In this document: piece by piece, positions 5,152-12,922 of the stretch | How the letters are laid out: every line of letters begins with the position of its first letter | Numbering within the stretch: the stretch's first letter is position 1 | Assembly (NCBI GenBank): GCA_016874005.1 | Contig: VGVQ01000027.1 | Coordinates: 1 to 41,332, forward strand | DNA length: 41,332 bases | Reading direction: 5' to 3' | Origin: Gemmatimonadota bacterium | Lineage (GTDB): Bacteria; Gemmatimonadota; Gemmatimonadetes; Gemmatimonadales; GWC2-71-9 | Notes under the pieces: generated by a model | Told to the model about the DNA's origin: nothing | Databases searched by the model: none | What the model saw: only the letters and a program-made list of their open reading frames with translations | Position numbers and translations under genes: made by a program

Positions 5152-5180
5152 TTGACGAATCGTCGATCCGTTCCGATCTT
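5152..5180 (+). promoter_or_regulatory. Candidate promoter of the aroF-trp operon
   Basis: TTGACG (5152-5157) is a good -35 match. After 17 bases comes GATCTT (5175-5180), a weak -10 (3 of 6 to consensus). Transcription would then begin close to 5187, the ATG of the leader peptide, which has no Shine-Dalgarno sequence upstream; a leaderless leader peptide is possible. Placement between the DUF5916 stop and the attenuator supports the call; the weak -10 limits it. Confidence 0.45.
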
Positions 5181-5186
5181 GGTTTC

Positions 5187-5258
5187 ATGCTCGGCTCGAA
5201 GAAACCCGTCGCCCGTTGGTGGTGGCTCGCGCGCGAAGATTCGCGGCGGGGCGGGTAG
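5187..5258 (+). CDS. trpL: Trp leader peptide with three tandem Trp codons
   Basis: A 23-codon ORF, ATG 5187 to TAG 5256-5258. It encodes MLGSKKPVAR, then Trp-Trp-Trp (TGG TGG TGG, 5217-5225), then LAREDSRRGG. Tryptophan is the rarest residue, and three in a row immediately before a terminator-like hairpin and a trp operon is the hallmark of ribosome-mediated attenuation. When charged tRNA-Trp is scarce the ribosome stalls at 5217-5225; otherwise it moves on to the stop and covers the antiterminator strand. The peptide itself is not expected to have a function. No Shine-Dalgarno is seen, so translation may be leaderless from the adjacent promoter. Reading and position are directly visible; regulation is inference from the well-known mechanism. 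Confidence 0.87.
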   Translation: MLGSKKPVARWWWLAREDSRRGG

Positions 5259-5300
5259 CGAGCACAGATTTCGTGTCGTGATTCCCAGGAGCCCACCGCG
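5222..5300 (+). promoter_or_regulatory. Trp attenuator: 1:2 pause hairpin and antiterminator pairing
   Basis: Two alternative pairings can be drawn by hand. GTGGCTCGC (5222-5230, inside the Trp codons) pairs with GCGAGCAC (5258-5265) with one bulge, a candidate pause hairpin. CGCGGCGGG (5242-5250) pairs with CCCACCGCG (5292-5300) with one mismatch; this antiterminator uses part of the terminator's 5' arm, so the two are mutually exclusive. A ribosome stalled on the Trp codons leaves 5242-5250 free; one reaching the stop at 5256 hides it. Geometry is as expected; energies were not computed. Confidence 0.62.
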
Positions 5301-5321
5301 TCGCGTGGGCTCCTGTCGTTT
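5287..5321 (+). terminator. Trp attenuator terminator hairpin
   Basis: Perfect 10-bp inverted repeat AGGAGCCCAC (5287-5296) and GTGGGCTCCT (5305-5314) with an 8-base loop, followed by GTCGTTT. The T-run is short, as is usual in high-GC genomes. It lies between the leader peptide and aroF, 45 bases upstream of the aroF start, so it can stop transcription before the operon. Confidence 0.8.
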
Positions 5322-5365
5322 ATGGTCATGCCCACGCGTCGCTGACACCAGAACCGGGGGACGCA

Positions 5366-6375
<1,010 letters not shown>

Positions 6376-6379
<4 letters not shown>

Positions 6380-7953
6380 GCTCGCCGCCCGGGTCCATCA
6401 CCCCATTCGCCCGCCGCCTCGACCACGCCCCCGACTCGGTCGAGCTGCTCGCTGCCCTGGGTGCCGGGCCCCACGGGTTCATCATCGAGTCGGCCGATCC
6501 AACCGGCCGCCGGCTCGAGCACAGCGTGGTCGGACTCCGCTCCGCCCTGCACTTGACGGCCGATCGAACCACCGCGACGGTCGCGGCACTCACCCCGAAC
6601 GGCGAGGCCGCCCTCGACTGGCTGGCGACGACCGAGCCGGACGGCGAACGGATCGGGCGGACCTTGCGGGTCGGTTTCGGAACGCCCCGACCCCGACACC
6701 GTGCTTCGACCAGACCGCCCTCTCCCCTCGACCTGATCCGGCGATTGGTGTCCGGGCCGACGGTGGCCCCGCGTCCCAGTCCCTGGTGCCACCTGGCCGC
6801 CGGCCTCTTCGGCTACGATGTCATCGACTACTTCGCGACCCTGCCACCCGGTGGCGCCGACCCCCTGGAGCAGCCGATCCTGGAATGGTGGATCCCCGAG
6901 GCGCTCGCGGTGGTCGACCATCGCCGGGGGCACACCACCGTGATCGCGTCGGCGTGGGGCGGTGCCGAGGCCGCTCCACGAGTCCACGACGCCGTCCGCA
7001 CCGTCGCCGGGCTGGCTCGGCTGGTGATGTCGATTCCCCAGGCCGAGCCGTTCGGCCCGGCTCCCCGCTCGACGGTCGACCCCGAGGTCGAGGCCGATCT
7101 TTCCGACGCAGGGTACGCCGAGGTCGTTAGGCGGCTCCAACGTCACCTCCACGCCGGCGACGTCTATCAGATCGTGCCAGCCCGGACCTTCTCGACCGAC
7201 TGCCCTGATCCGCTCGAGGCGTATCGCCACCTCCGCGCCCGGGAACCCGGGGCTCATCTGTTCTACTTCGCCGGCGCCAGCCGGACGATCTTCGGTTCGT
7301 CTCCGGAGCGCTGTCTTTCGGTCAACGGAGCCTCCCGGGAAGTCTCGATCACGCCAATTGCCGGAACCGCGCCGCGTGGTCGCGGCCCGGACGGCCAGCT
7401 CGACTCTGAGACCGACGCCAGGCACGAGGCAGCGCTCCGCCAAAACCCGAAGGAACTCGCCGAGCACATGATGCTGGTCGACCTCGCCCGCAACGACGTG
7501 GCCCGGGTCTCGGAACCCGGCACCCGCTCGGTCCGGCGGCTCTTGGCAGTCGAGCGTTTCGCCGAGGTGATGCACCTGGTCTCCGAGGTGACCGGGATCC
7601 TCCGCTCCGACCTCGACGCCCTCGACGCCTACGCGGCCACGGCCAACATGGGGACCCTGGTCGGGGTCCCCAAGCTCCGGGCAGCCGAGTTGCTCCGCGA
7701 CGCCGAGCCGCGGCGGCGGGGCGCCTACGGCGGCGCGGCCGGATACCTCCGGTTCGATGGCAGCCTCGACACCGCGATCGTGATCCGGTCGGCCGTGGTC
7801 CAGCGCGGGCAGGCCCACGTGACCGCCGGCGCCGGCGTCGTCCTGGACTCCGACCCCGACGGGGAGGCCCGGGAAACCCGTCATAAAGCCCGCGCGGTGC
7901 TCGGCGCCATCGCGACGGCCCGAGCCGCGGTCGAGGAGGCGATCGGTGCTTGA
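6376..7953 (+). CDS. trpE: Anthranilate synthase component I
   Basis: Converts chorismate plus ammonia (delivered by TrpG) to anthranilate. 525 residues, near the family length. The N-terminal FIIESAD matches the LLES-type tryptophan feedback site. The C-terminal chorismate-binding domain is complete: YQIVPARTFS, IFGSSPERCL, ITPIAGTAPRG, HMMLVDLARNDVARV, VERFAEVMHLVSEVTG, RRGAYGGAAGYL and AGAGVVLDSDPDGEARE. GTG 6376 overlaps the aroF stop. The CGTTAGGC at 7125 is read here as GTT AGG (Val-Arg) rather than TTA GGC, showing that the octamer is not merely a dipeptide preference. Confidence 0.96.
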
Positions 7954-8536
7954 GACTCCCGCCGTTCTACTCCTCGACAACTTCGACTCGTTCACCGACA
8001 ACCTCGCGGACGAGTTCGCTCGCCGGGGGGCGCCGGTGACTGTGCTCACGAACGCGCTGCCGCTCGAGGTGGTCGACGCCGCGATCGGGAGCCACGACCT
8101 GCTGGTGATCTCCCCCGGCCCGGGCGCGCCGGCCGACGCCGGCTGTACCGTCCCGCTCGTCGAACGATGCCTCGGGCGGATCCCGATCTTCGGCGTTTGT
8201 CTCGGGCACCAGGCGTTAGTGGCCGCCGCCGGCGGACAGGTCGAGCGCGCCCCGACTCCGATCCATGGACGGGCGGTGCCCCTGACTCACGATGGGTCGG
8301 CGCCCTTCGAAGGCCTCCCCAACCCGATGCCGGTCGGTCGCTACCACTCGCTCGGAGCGACTCGACTGCCGCCCGCGCTGGCCGCGATCGCCCACGCCGA
8401 CGGTGTGGTCATGGCGGTCAGCCACCGGGTCCATCCGGCGCTCGGGGTGCAGTTCCATCCCGAGTCGATCCTCACCCCGAGCGGAGGACCGCTGTTCGAC
8501 AACCTGATCGCCTGGGTGCGCCGTGTCGGTCGCTAG
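7946..8536 (+). CDS. trpG: Anthranilate synthase component II (glutamine amidotransferase)
   Basis: Class I glutamine amidotransferase supplying ammonia to TrpE; 196 residues. Catalytic Cys85 is in GVCLGHQA, and the His-Glu pair is in VQFHPESI near residue 175. The oxyanion-type SPGPGAP segment is at about 56-62. GTG 7946 overlaps the trpE end by 8 bases. A near-match to the window's octamer (CGTTAGTG, 8214) includes one of the few TTA codons outside the motif. It is a stand-alone trpG, with no trpD fusion. Confidence 0.95.
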   Translation: MLETPAVLLLDNFDSFTDNLADEFARRGAPVTVLTNALPLEVVDAAIGSHDLLVISPGPGAPADAGCTVPLVERCLGRIPIFGVCLGHQALVAAAGGQVERAPTPIHGRAVPLTHDGSAPFEGLPNPMPVGRYHSLGATRLPPALAAIAHADGVVMAVSHRVHPALGVQFHPESILTPSGGPLFDNLIAWVRRVGR

Positions 8537-9533
8537 CCTCCTCGACACCCTCGCGACCCGGCATCTCAACGACGGCGAATCGTATCAGGCGTTCCGGTCG
8601 ATCGCCGGCGGCGACTGGTCGGAGGTCGAGATCGCGGCCCTGCTCGGGGCGCTCAAGACGCGAGGCGAGACGGCGGACGTGATCGTCGGCGCGGCTCGGG
8701 CCCTCCGTGCCGCCGCCGTCCCCTTCCCGAAGCCGCCCTATCCCATCACCGACACCTGCGGCACCGGCGGCGATGGCGCCGGCACCGTCAACCTCTCGAC
8801 CGCGGTCGCGTTCGTCGCCGCGGCGGGAGGGGTTCGGGTGGTCAAGCACGGCAACCGGGCCGCTTCGTCGCGATGCGGCTCGGCGGACGTGCTCGAAGCC
8901 CTCGGCGTGAACCTGACCGCCAGTGCCGAGGTATCCCGCCGGTGCCTCGACCTCCTGGGGATCTGCTTCCTGTTCGCCCCCCACTATCACCGCGGCGTCC
9001 ATCGGGCGGGGGCGGTTCGGGCAACCTTGAAGACCAGAACCCTGTTCAACCTGCTCGGCCCGCTCGCCAATCCCGCGCTGCCAGAGTACCAGGTGGTTGG
9101 CGTCTATGCGCCGGAGCTCTGTCACCCCGTGGCCACCACCCTGGCGCGACTGGGGTGCCTCTCAGCCCTGGTGGTGCACGGCGGAGGGCTCGACGAACTG
9201 GCCCTCCATGCGCCGACCGTCGGCTATCGACTCGCCGAGGGTCGGCTATCGGCGGTCACGATTCGAGCGGAGGATTACGACTTGACGCCGGCCGATCCGA
9301 CCGAGCTCAGGGGCGCCGACGCCACGGCCAATGCCCGCTGGCTCCAGACGGTGCTCGCCGGCGGTGGCAGTCGGGCCGATCGCGACGCGGTGGCCCTCAA
9401 CGCCGGTGCCGCCTTCTGGGTGACGGGGATCGAGCCGACCTTGGCCGCGGGGGTCAGACTCGCCCACTCGATCCTCGCGGACGGCCGAGCGGCCGGGCTG
9501 CCGGGCCGGCTGGCGGAGCTGTCCCATGCTTGA
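8523..9533 (+). CDS. trpD: Anthranilate phosphoribosyltransferase
   Basis: Transfers the phosphoribosyl group of PRPP to anthranilate. 336 residues, the usual size. Motifs: DTCGTGGDG (PRPP loop), VVKHGNRAASSRCGSADVLEALGV, FLFAPHYHRGV, RTLFNLLGPLANPA and VVHGGGLDEL. Classical enzymes have KHGNRS-S-SGSADV; the S-to-A and S-to-C changes here are mild. GTG 8523 overlaps trpG by 14 bases, suggesting translational coupling. Confidence 0.95.
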   Translation: MSVASLLDTLATRHLNDGESYQAFRSIAGGDWSEVEIAALLGALKTRGETADVIVGAARALRAAAVPFPKPPYPITDTCGTGGDGAGTVNLSTAVAFVAAAGGVRVVKHGNRAASSRCGSADVLEALGVNLTASAEVSRRCLDLLGICFLFAPHYHRGVHRAGAVRATLKTRTLFNLLGPLANPALPEYQVVGVYAPELCHPVATTLARLGCLSALVVHGGGLDELALHAPTVGYRLAEGRLSAVTIRAEDYDLTPADPTELRGADATANARWLQTVLAGGGSRADRDAVALNAGAAFWVTGIEPTLAAGVRLAHSILADGRAAGLPGRLAELSHA

Positions 9534-10902
9534 GCGGATCGTGGCCCACAAGCGGGTCGAGGTCGCCGCGAGAGCGGCGGCGGTCCCGTTACCCAACCTT
9601 CTCGCGGCGGCGACCCGGGCGGAGCGCGATTTTCTAGCGGCCCTCAGGCGAGCGAAGCCGGCGTTCATCTTCGAGATCAAGCCCACGGCGCCATCGGCGG
9701 GTCGGCTCCGCGAGGTCCGCGACCTCGAGCCGGTCTTCGCGGCCTATCACCGCCTTGCGGACGCCGTGAGCGTCCTGGTCGACGAGACCTTCTTCGGGGG
9801 GTCATATCGCCTGCTGGCCGACGTTAGGCGGCGACTGCCTCAGCCGCTCCTCTGCAAGGACGTCGTGGTCGACCGCTACCAGGTGGCGGAGGCTCGAGTG
9901 CACGGCGCCGACGCCGTCCTCCTGATGCTCGCGGTGCTCGACGACCCGGAGTACCTGGCGGCCGCAGCCCTGGCCCGGTCGCTCGGCATGGCGGTCGTGA
10001 CCGAGGTGCGGGTGGCGGCCGAAATGGCTCGGGCGGCCAGGCTTGGCGCGGCCATCGTCGGGATCAACAATCGCGACCTCCGGTCGCTCGCCGTCGACCT
10101 CGCCACTACCCCCACCCTCGCCGCCGCGGCCCCGCCCGGGGCGGTGGTGATCGCCGAGTCCGGGGTGACCTCTCGCGCCGCGGTGGTGCGGCTCCGCGGG
10201 CTGGTCGACGGATTCCTGATCGGCTCGGCGCCGATGGCGGCGGCCGATCCGGCAAGAACCGTTCGGGAACTCGTGTTCGGACCGACCAAAGTCTGCGGTC
10301 TCACCGATCGGGCCGACGCCCAAGTGGCCAGCGCCGCGGGAGCCACCCACGGCGGGCTGGTGTTCGCGCCCGAGTCGCCCCGGCTGGTCACCGTCGGGGA
10401 CGGCCGCCGACTCCGGCGCGACGTCGAGCTACGCTGGGTCGGCGTCTTCGCCAACCAGCCGCGGGATGAAGTAATCGCGACCGCCCGCGAGGTCGGGCTC
10501 GACGCCGTTCAACTCCACGGCGACGAGGACGCCGGATACGTCGCCGACCTGAGGCGGCGGCTCCCGGAACCGGTCGAGGTCTGGACCGCGGTACCGGTCG
10601 GCCAGAGCCTGCCTCGCCACCGCCCCGGCGATCGGGTGCTGTTCGACGCCTGGGACACGACCCAGCGCGGTGGGACGGGCCGGAGTTTCGATTGGTCGCT
10701 GCTGGCGGGTCTCGAGCATCCCGATCGCTGCGTCCTCGCCGGCGGCCTCGCGGCCGATAACGCCGCTCGCGCCGAGGCCACTGGGATCCACTTTCTCGAC
10801 GCCGGCAGCCGGCTCGAGGGGACGGTGGTCGGCCGCAAGTCGACCGAGCGAATGGCGGCCTTCTTCACCGCCAGGCGAACCGGGGCGGGAGCGGCGCCAT
10901 GA
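9526..10902 (+). CDS. trpCF: Fused indole-3-glycerol-phosphate synthase / phosphoribosylanthranilate isomerase
   Basis: Bifunctional enzyme, 458 residues, arranged like E. coli TrpC(F). Residues about 1-250 are [40 protein letters not shown] and DGFLIGSA. Residues about 252-450 are PRAI: KVCGLT (catalytic Cys), [28 protein letters not shown] and [19 protein letters not shown] (catalytic Asp). Both active sites look intact, so it performs two successive steps from phosphoribosylanthranilate to indole glycerol phosphate. ATG 9526 overlaps trpD by 8 bases. It has a CGTTAGGC at 9822, read as GTT AGG. Confidence 0.95.
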
Positions 10903-12062
10903 GCGCGGTGGGGCGATTCGGGGCGTTCGGCGGCCGATACGTGCCCGAGATCCTGATGCCGGCGCTCGAGGAGCTCGACCAGGTCTTCCAGGCCAGCCGC
11001 GCCGATCCCGAGTTCCAGGCCGAGTTGAGCGAGCTGCTGGCGACTTTCGCCGGCAGGCCGACACCACTCCATCGCTGCCGGAGATTCGGGGCCCCGGCAA
11101 CCGTTTGGCTCAAGCGGGAAGACCTGCTCCACGGCGGGGCCCACAAGACCAATCAGGCGCTCGCCCAGGGGCTCCTCGCCCGTCGGCTCGGCAAGGCGCG
11201 ATTGATCGCCGAAACCGGCGCCGGCCAACACGGGGTGGCAACCGCGATGGCCGGCGCCTGTCTGGGTCTGGCAACCACGGTCTACATGGGCGTCCACGAC
11301 GTCGAGCGCCAACGGCAGAACGTCGACCGGATGCGACTCTACGGCGCGACGGTTCACGGCGTCGCGACCGGCGGCGGGACGCTGAAAGGCGCCATCAACG
11401 AAGCGCTTCGGGACTGGTCGGCGAGCTACCGGGATACCCATTATCTGTTAGGCACCGCCGCCGGGCCCCATCCCTATCCGACGATGGTGCGGGAATTTCA
11501 GCGGGTCATTGGAGACGAAGCCCGGACCCAATGTCTGGCCTGCCTCGGCCGGCTGCCCGACGCCGTCATCGCCTGCGTCGGGGGTGGCTCCAACGCGATC
11601 GGGACGTTCGCCGCGTTCCTCGACGACCCGGTCGCCCTGGTGGGTGTCGAGCCGGCGGGCCGCGGACTGGACACCCCGTTCCACGGCGCGGCGATCGCCC
11701 GAGGCCGCGATACCGTGCTCCACGGCGCCCTCACCAAGGTGCTCGCCGACGAGGACGGTCAGATCCTCGAGTCGCACTCGGTGTCGGCGGGACTCGACTA
11801 CCCGGCGGTCGGGCCGGAGCATGCCCATCTGGCCGCGATCGGCCGGGTCCACTATCGGGCCTGTGACGACCGGACCGCGGTGGCAACCTATCGGCGCTTC
11901 TCCCGCGACGAAGGCATCATCCCCGCACTCGAGAGCGCCCACGCCTTGGCCGAGGCGGCGCGACTCGCCGAGTCCCGCCCCGACTGGACCATCCTGGTAA
12001 CGTTGTCCGGTCGGGGCGACAAAGACCTCGCGACCGTCGCCGGCTTTCCCGACCCATCATGA
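10899..12062 (+). CDS. trpB: Tryptophan synthase beta subunit
   Basis: PLP enzyme joining indole and serine to form tryptophan. 387 residues, TrpB1 type. The PLP lysine is Lys83 in HGGAHKTNQ. Other motifs are [13 protein letters not shown], the phosphate-binding [26 protein letters not shown] and [12 protein letters not shown] 10899 overlaps the trpCF stop (ATGA) and the end overlaps trpA. The 7-mer GTTAGGC at 11447 codes Leu-Gly. Confidence 0.97.
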
Positions 12063-12922
12063 TCAGCCACCGCTACCGCGTCCTGTTCGACCGACATCGC
12101 CGGACCGGCGAAGCCGCGTTGGTCCCGTTCGTCGTCGTGGGTGACCCGACCCCAGACCATACCCCGGCGATCGTGGACCTCTTGGTCGAGGGCGGCGCCG
12201 ACGCGATCGAGTTGGGCCTCCCCTTCTCCGACCCGGTCGCCGACGGGCCGACGATCCAGGCCGCCGCGACTCGGGCGCTCGCGGCCGGTGCCACGGTGAC
12301 CCGGGTGTGGACCGCGATCTCACGGATTCGGGAACGGCACCCCGATCTCCCGTTAGGCCTGCTGAGCTACGCCAGCCCCGTCTTCACGCGCGGCGTCGAA
12401 CGGTTCTATGGCGAGGCCGCGGCGGCGGGACTGGACTCGGTACTGGTGCCCGACCTCCCGTCCGCGGAGGCCGCCCCCGTCCTCGAGGCGGCGGCCAAGC
12501 TGGGCGTAGATTCCGTCCTGATCGCCCCTCCCGATGCATCGCGGGAGACCTTGTTCCGGGTTGCCCGCGGTGCGACTGGTTTCGTCTATCTCACCTCGCG
12601 GGCGGGGGTGACCGGACTCTCGGCGGTCGTGTTTCGGGACATCGCGAGCCGGGTAGCGGATCTCGACCGACTGGGCGCTCCTCCCGCGATGGTCGGGTTC
12701 GGGATCGGTTGCTCGGACCAGGTGCGTCAGGTCGTCGACACCGGCGCCGCCGGCGTCATTGTCGGAAGCGCGACGGTGGAGCGATCGACTGCCGCCCTGG
12801 CGGGAGCGGGCGGCGGGCCAATGGATCTGGTCCGTTTCATCGCCGACCTCAAGGCGGCAACCCGGCACCGTTGGCGTAACGGCGCTAGCCTCGGCCAAGC
12901 TGATGTTCCAACCGTCGTCTGA
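12059..12922 (+). CDS. trpA: Tryptophan synthase alpha subunit
   Basis: Cleaves indole glycerol phosphate to indole, which channels to TrpB. 287 residues. Catalytic Glu51 and Asp62 lie in [17 protein letters not shown], with the same 11-residue spacing as in the Salmonella enzyme. [17 protein letters not shown] and [11 protein letters not shown] complete the barrel. ATG 12059 overlaps trpB. It is the last recognised gene of the operon. Confidence 0.96.

Follow-up and report, generated by a model that had tools for sequence, protein, structure and literature searches.

The window, a stretch of 41,332 nucleotides from a Gemmatimonadota genome, carries a short leader in front of a tryptophan operon. 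A leader ORF, an antiterminator strand and a terminator-like hairpin are followed by aroF-trpE-trpG-trpD-trpCF-trpB-trpA, and gene assignment by NCBIfam agreed with the order aroF-trpEGD(CF)BA given in an earlier note on this DNA. The features are as follows.

5152–5157, forward strand: predicted −35 element TTGACG, 35 nt upstream of the leader ATG; spacing conserved in relatives
5175–5180, forward strand: possible weak −10 element GATCTT, 17 nt from the −35; its position matches the TAnnnT of relatives, from which it is inferred here
5187–5258, forward strand: leader ORF, MLGSKKPVARWWWLAREDSRRGG, followed by its stop codon; read from the sequence, with start and Trp cluster kept in relatives
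5217–5225, forward strand: three tandem Trp codons, the predicted stall site (sequence)
5225–5252, forward strand: pause or protector hairpin 1:2, pairing 5225–5230 and 5232–5236 with 5241–5252 (fold; 16 leaders)
5242–5255, forward strand: segment 2, the antiterminator strand within the leader ORF, pairing with 5284–5300 (stalled-ribosome fold)
5286–5315, forward strand: terminator hairpin 3:4 of 11 + 2 bp, interrupted by a one-base bulge (fold; covariation on 16 leaders)
5316–5323, forward strand: imperfect T tract TCGTTTAT, the predicted termination zone (sequence, terminator scan)
5366–6379, forward strand: aroF, DAHP synthase, first gene of the operon (NF006421 and TIGR01361 over cut-off)
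6376–7953, forward strand: trpE (NF010079 over cut-off; single match in the genome)
7946–8536, forward strand: trpG (TIGR00566 over cut-off)
8523–9533, forward strand: trpD (TIGR01245 over cut-off)
9526–10902, forward strand: trpC(F), fused (NF006945 over cut-off)
10899–12062, forward strand: trpB (TIGR00263 over cut-off)
12059–12922, forward strand: trpA (TIGR00262 over cut-off)

The leader ORF comprises 23 codons and closes with TAG at 5256–5258. The Trp-Trp-Trp leader described earlier, with its Trp codons and its stop at 5256, was confirmed in the sequence. Another leader start, ATG 5118 (46 aa), was dropped because the predicted −35 falls within that ORF and it is the start at 5187 that is conserved.

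The terminator stem pairs 5286–5296 with 5305–5315 over 11 bp, with two more bp past the bulge, and folds with −22.9 kcal/mol. The hairpin claimed in the earlier note was present, and only its length of 10 bp had to be corrected. In the tail behind it, T occupies five of the eight positions, which is weaker than the tails of most relatives. One terminator-like site was observed in the region against a mean of 0.6 in shuffles, so the window hairpin by itself is not above chance; the case for an attenuator is made by the combination of parts together with the relatives, not by the hairpin alone. The poor T tract would suit a Trp-sensing leader without a strong intrinsic terminator, in which translation keeps Rho off the RNA, or else the structures affect aroF translation or mRNA stability. 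This explanation is quite unlikely, since the relatives carry clear T tracts (TTTTTCGTT, TTTTTTTGT), the stem covaries, and the hairpin ends 50 nt upstream of the aroF start, with the GGGGGA preceding aroF lying outside it. Termination at the hairpin itself, controlled by a competing structure, is the reading we prefer.

A stalled ribosome was represented by masking the RNA up to 5234, with the terminator 3′ arm not yet made. Under these conditions the antiterminator was the best fold, pairing 5242–5246 with 5296–5300, 5249–5252 with 5291–5294, and 5253–5255 with 5284–5286. The earlier note had proposed folding with masked bases and had placed the antiterminator strand at 5242–5250, where it was indeed located. 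Its claim that the geometry fits stalling control also held in the masked folds, in which a ribosome at the stall site occupies segment 1 but not segment 2. The window antiterminator, with one C·A mismatch in the conserved register, was only modestly better than dinucleotide shuffles (p = 0.09), while the other eight Gemmatimonadota antiterminators gave p = 0.002–0.036. With the ribosome at the Trp codons, the terminator 5′ arm paired upstream with a probability of 0.60–1.00 across the nine Gemmatimonadota copies, compared with 0.04–0.55 when the ribosome stood at the leader stop; the window's own contrast was poor (0.60 stalled, 0.55 at the stop). A mutually exclusive antiterminator is present in the relatives and weak in the window copy, and with its p value and imperfect T tract this copy is the weakest attenuator of the set. 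When the complete RNA was folded at equilibrium, the terminator dominated even with a stalled ribosome, so the switch has to be kinetic, which we assume.

TrpE of the trp-operon type was found in 10 of the 395 Gemmatimonadota genomes sampled. The upstream region was present in nine, all of which had a Trp-rich leader, an antiterminator strand and a terminator before aroF. The tenth leader (genome G001) was a covariance-model match at a contig edge, which cuts the next gene just past its start. All ten Gemmatimonadota leaders found at this operon type, the window's among them, have clustered Trp codons, an antiterminator strand and a terminator. The earlier note would have taken homologous leaders without Trp codons or hairpins as evidence against attenuation, and none of the ten is of that kind.

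Sixteen leaders were aligned (nine Gemmatimonadota, six Myxococcota/Deltaproteobacteria, and one Sphingomonas). The terminator was paired in 91% of cells. The antiterminator helix was 77% paired against 34–48% in slid versions, and the pause helix 79% against 38–57%. The compensatory stem changes that the earlier note proposed to look for were recovered in the terminator (17 two-sided changes, 5.0 after shuffling), whereas the antiterminator and pause helices showed no clear excess over column shuffles. Two relatives carry matched changes. Segments 2, 3, and 4 were all altered jointly in G344, and in G038 an altered terminator arm was accompanied by an antiterminator shifted to match.

These same leader sequences served to build the covariance model R1, with the leaders of G001, G303, G262, and G026 outside it, so its recovery of the leaders it was built from is not independent. 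Weaker matches of the model (E 1e-9 to 0.01; loci L127–L146) were also read, and all but L127, L128, and L140 were rejected as Trp leaders. The others look like ordinary GC-rich terminators or coding sequence; in L138 the WWW belongs to the end of a long ORF. The window leader had the lowest model score among the ten trp-operon leaders (66.1 bits), which together with its weak antiterminator would fit a chance resemblance or a decayed remnant that is no longer regulatory in this genome. However, the three Trp codons, the ORF, the stem and the TTGAC–ATG spacing have all been kept at a TrpE identity of 53–56% to the nearest relatives, and we regard a remnant as highly improbable. Outside the Trp cluster and the stretch encoding segment 2, the leader peptides of the relatives have diverged. 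In 22 other relatives with a diverged TrpE, the 1.5 kb upstream of it contained no convincing Trp leader.

The predicted −35 element was not detected by a generic promoter scan, and its assignment comes from spacing. TTGAC lies 34–37 nt before the leader ATG in 7/9 Gemmatimonadota leaders against 0.02 expected by shuffling (0.019), in 5/6 Myxococcota/Deltaproteobacteria leaders (0.02 expected), in both Sphingomonas leaders (0.003 expected), and in 12/19 Planctomycetota leaders (0.08 expected). The same spacing was found in none of ten Gammaproteobacteria leaders. Among the ten Gemmatimonadota leaders, eight have TTGAC at 35–36 nt, G007 has it at 38 nt, and G344 has none. In the window, a −10 element at 5175–5180 would set the transcription start at or adjacent to 5187. 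A Shine-Dalgarno core was absent before the 31 trp and his leaders examined. Given this spacing and the missing core, the leader mRNA is probably leaderless, with its 5′ end at or near the AUG. The arrangement as such is already known, as the Sinorhizobium meliloti trpL RNA starts at its ATG (PMC7298713) and Streptomyces lividans trpL1 has been reported as leaderless (PMC8079986).

Other known regulators of tryptophan genes were sought as well. TrpR (PF01371) was found in 0/8 genomes, namely the window's genome and seven relatives, and the T-box (RF00230) matched neither the window nor any of these eight genomes. Rfam gave no match in the window at the gathering score or at E up to 10, RF00513 Trp_leader included. 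On the sequence evidence, we read 5187–5323 as a ribosome-mediated transcription attenuator of aroF-trpEGD(CF)BA, with a probability of about 0.92. This reading is supported by the covariation, the matched changes in G344 and G038, the leaders of related operons, the absence of TrpR and T-box, and a His leader in the same genome.

Leader translation, the start site and Trp-dependent termination are predicted parts of the following scheme. Transcription would begin at the leader ATG or right beside it. With charged tRNA-Trp in short supply, the ribosome would stall at 5217–5225 and cover segment 1; segment 2 (5242–5255) could then pair with the emerging terminator 5′ arm, and RNA polymerase would continue into aroF. 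With ample Trp, the ribosome would reach the stop at 5256 and cover segment 2, as this segment lies inside the ORF. The 3:4 terminator would then form and transcription would end near 5316–5323. If the leader is not translated, 1:2 and 3:4 would form together and termination would again be expected.

The arrangement resembles Escherichia coli trpL in its tandem Trp codons within a short ORF, its mutually exclusive antiterminator and terminator, and its place before trpE of a related type. In E. coli trpL the leader stop lies before segment 2. Here, segment 2 is inside the ORF and aroF follows the leader; unlike the E. coli element (RF00513), the window leader has no Rfam match and no Shine-Dalgarno core, and TrpR was not found. 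S. lividans trpL1 (MFAHSTRNWWWTAHPAAH) likewise has three Trp codons, hairpins and a uridine-rich stretch and is reported leaderless (PMC8079986), but it is actinobacterial and precedes a monocistronic trpE. S. meliloti trpL is also a Trp leader with RNA from the ATG (PMC7298713), a start which is only predicted here; it differs in preceding a fused trpE(G) and in having documented trans functions. The shared, probably leaderless layout suggests that the terminated leader RNA or peptide could also act in trans, like rnTrpL/peTrpL of S. meliloti. Such a role would be compatible with attenuation in cis, but we consider it unlikely, as the peptides have diverged everywhere but in the Trp cluster and the part encoding segment 2.

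Trp leaders of Myxococcota/Deltaproteobacteria, Sphingomonas, and Planctomycetota share with the window a related TrpE, a terminator and mostly the same TTGAC–ATG spacing. They differ in that leaders and hairpins have diverged in sequence, many lack aroF, and most Planctomycetota TrpE are distant. Naville and Gautheret (2010, PMC2965389) added Firmicutes to the Proteobacteria and Actinobacteria, until then the only groups in which they knew leader-peptide systems; the Campylobacter jejuni TrpL is another predicted leader (PMC3847290). No earlier description of attenuation or a leader peptide at a Gemmatimonadetes trp operon was found in the open-access literature, a scope that does not prove that none exists. 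The mechanism itself is textbook knowledge, and the present analysis carries it into a phylum that has received little study.

In the TrpE tree, nine of the ten Gemmatimonadota sequences formed one supported group, together with a contig labelled Deltaproteobacteria (L033). The group was well separated (100/100) from the 12 TrpE sequences of other Gemmatimonadota and closer to Myxococcota, Sphingomonas, and Gammaproteobacteria. The G344 TrpE sat elsewhere on a long branch, beside a Planctomycetota sequence; the tree programme flagged long branches and uneven composition. Most related trpE genes in Myxococcota, Sphingomonas, Gammaproteobacteria, and Planctomycetota are preceded by Trp-rich leaders, several related operons of other phyla have aroF between leader and trpE, and the operon type is sporadic within Gemmatimonadota. 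Joint transfer is the simplest reading of the TrpE grouping and of the Trp leaders on related operons, with TrpE being the one operon gene placed in a tree. The trp operon and its attenuator have probably moved together between phyla and been acquired in Gemmatimonadota, which suggests that an attenuator can remain with its operon across phyla.

Several individual loci in other phyla were recorded during this comparison. In L032 (Deltaproteobacteria RIFOXYA12) aroF-trpE is retained with no clear Trp leader, and a hairpin lacking a T tract stands directly before aroF, possibly a decayed attenuator. In Aliikangiella marina (L058, about 1325–1670) two tandem Trp leaders, MKTINVHAHNISTLWWHWQN and MINRHNNIHTAWWWHSDTLSG, each ORF ending in a stop, lie with terminators before aroF-trpE. 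In Phycisphaerae and allies (Planctomycetota, L068–L109) a WW or WWW leader precedes most related trpE, usually with TTGACA 35–39 nt upstream of the leader ATG.

Leaders of the same build also occur at histidine genes. A His-rich leader (L113), MIRVAHRHSHHHHHAERCGDGSGRARR followed by a stop, stands before hisG in the window's genome, with TTGAC 36 nt upstream of its ATG.

2200–2068, reverse strand (genome G000, contig C1): His leader before hisG, with terminator AGCCCGTCCCCTTGGGACGGGCT and a T tract

Among the 30 hisG loci read, 18 have His-rich leaders, window genome included (17/29 in the others), and 17 of these 18 have TTGAC 34–39 nt before the start. The His antiterminators were individually no better than shuffles (p = 0.065–0.69). 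Trp leaders were also present before trpD-trpC in G303, G262, and G026. Related genomes suggest that Trp and His attenuation is widespread in Gemmatimonadota. From the fixed promoter–AUG spacing, trp and his leader transcripts alike are predicted to be leaderless. We lean, with some reserve, towards a broader view in which ribosome-mediated attenuation is general for amino-acid biosynthesis in the phylum (trp, his, perhaps leucine), with leaderless leaders of uniform promoter–AUG spacing and a trp attenuator inherited with a phylum-crossing operon. In our opinion, such leaders would give this phylum, for which genetic tools are scarce, control elements that respond to amino acids.

At the trpD-trpC loci, L127 and L128 (G303 and G262) have WRPW leaders (MANRSSTSCWRPWRDTSRSRALRV, then a stop) and a terminator before trpD-trpC, not trpE. 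In L179 (G026) there are apparently two tandem Trp-rich leader ORFs, lying between about 407 and 59 bases upstream of the trpD match, with a terminator-like hairpin after each and trpD-trpC downstream. For the window's genome, no leucine-rich leader with a terminator was found before leuA-like genes. In L206 (G014) and L208 (G008), Leu/Val-rich short ORFs such as MTLVLLALALTNLLVVLLIGRQGFRGVPGRA and terminator-like hairpins precede leuA-like genes, and both are candidate leucine or branched-chain attenuators.
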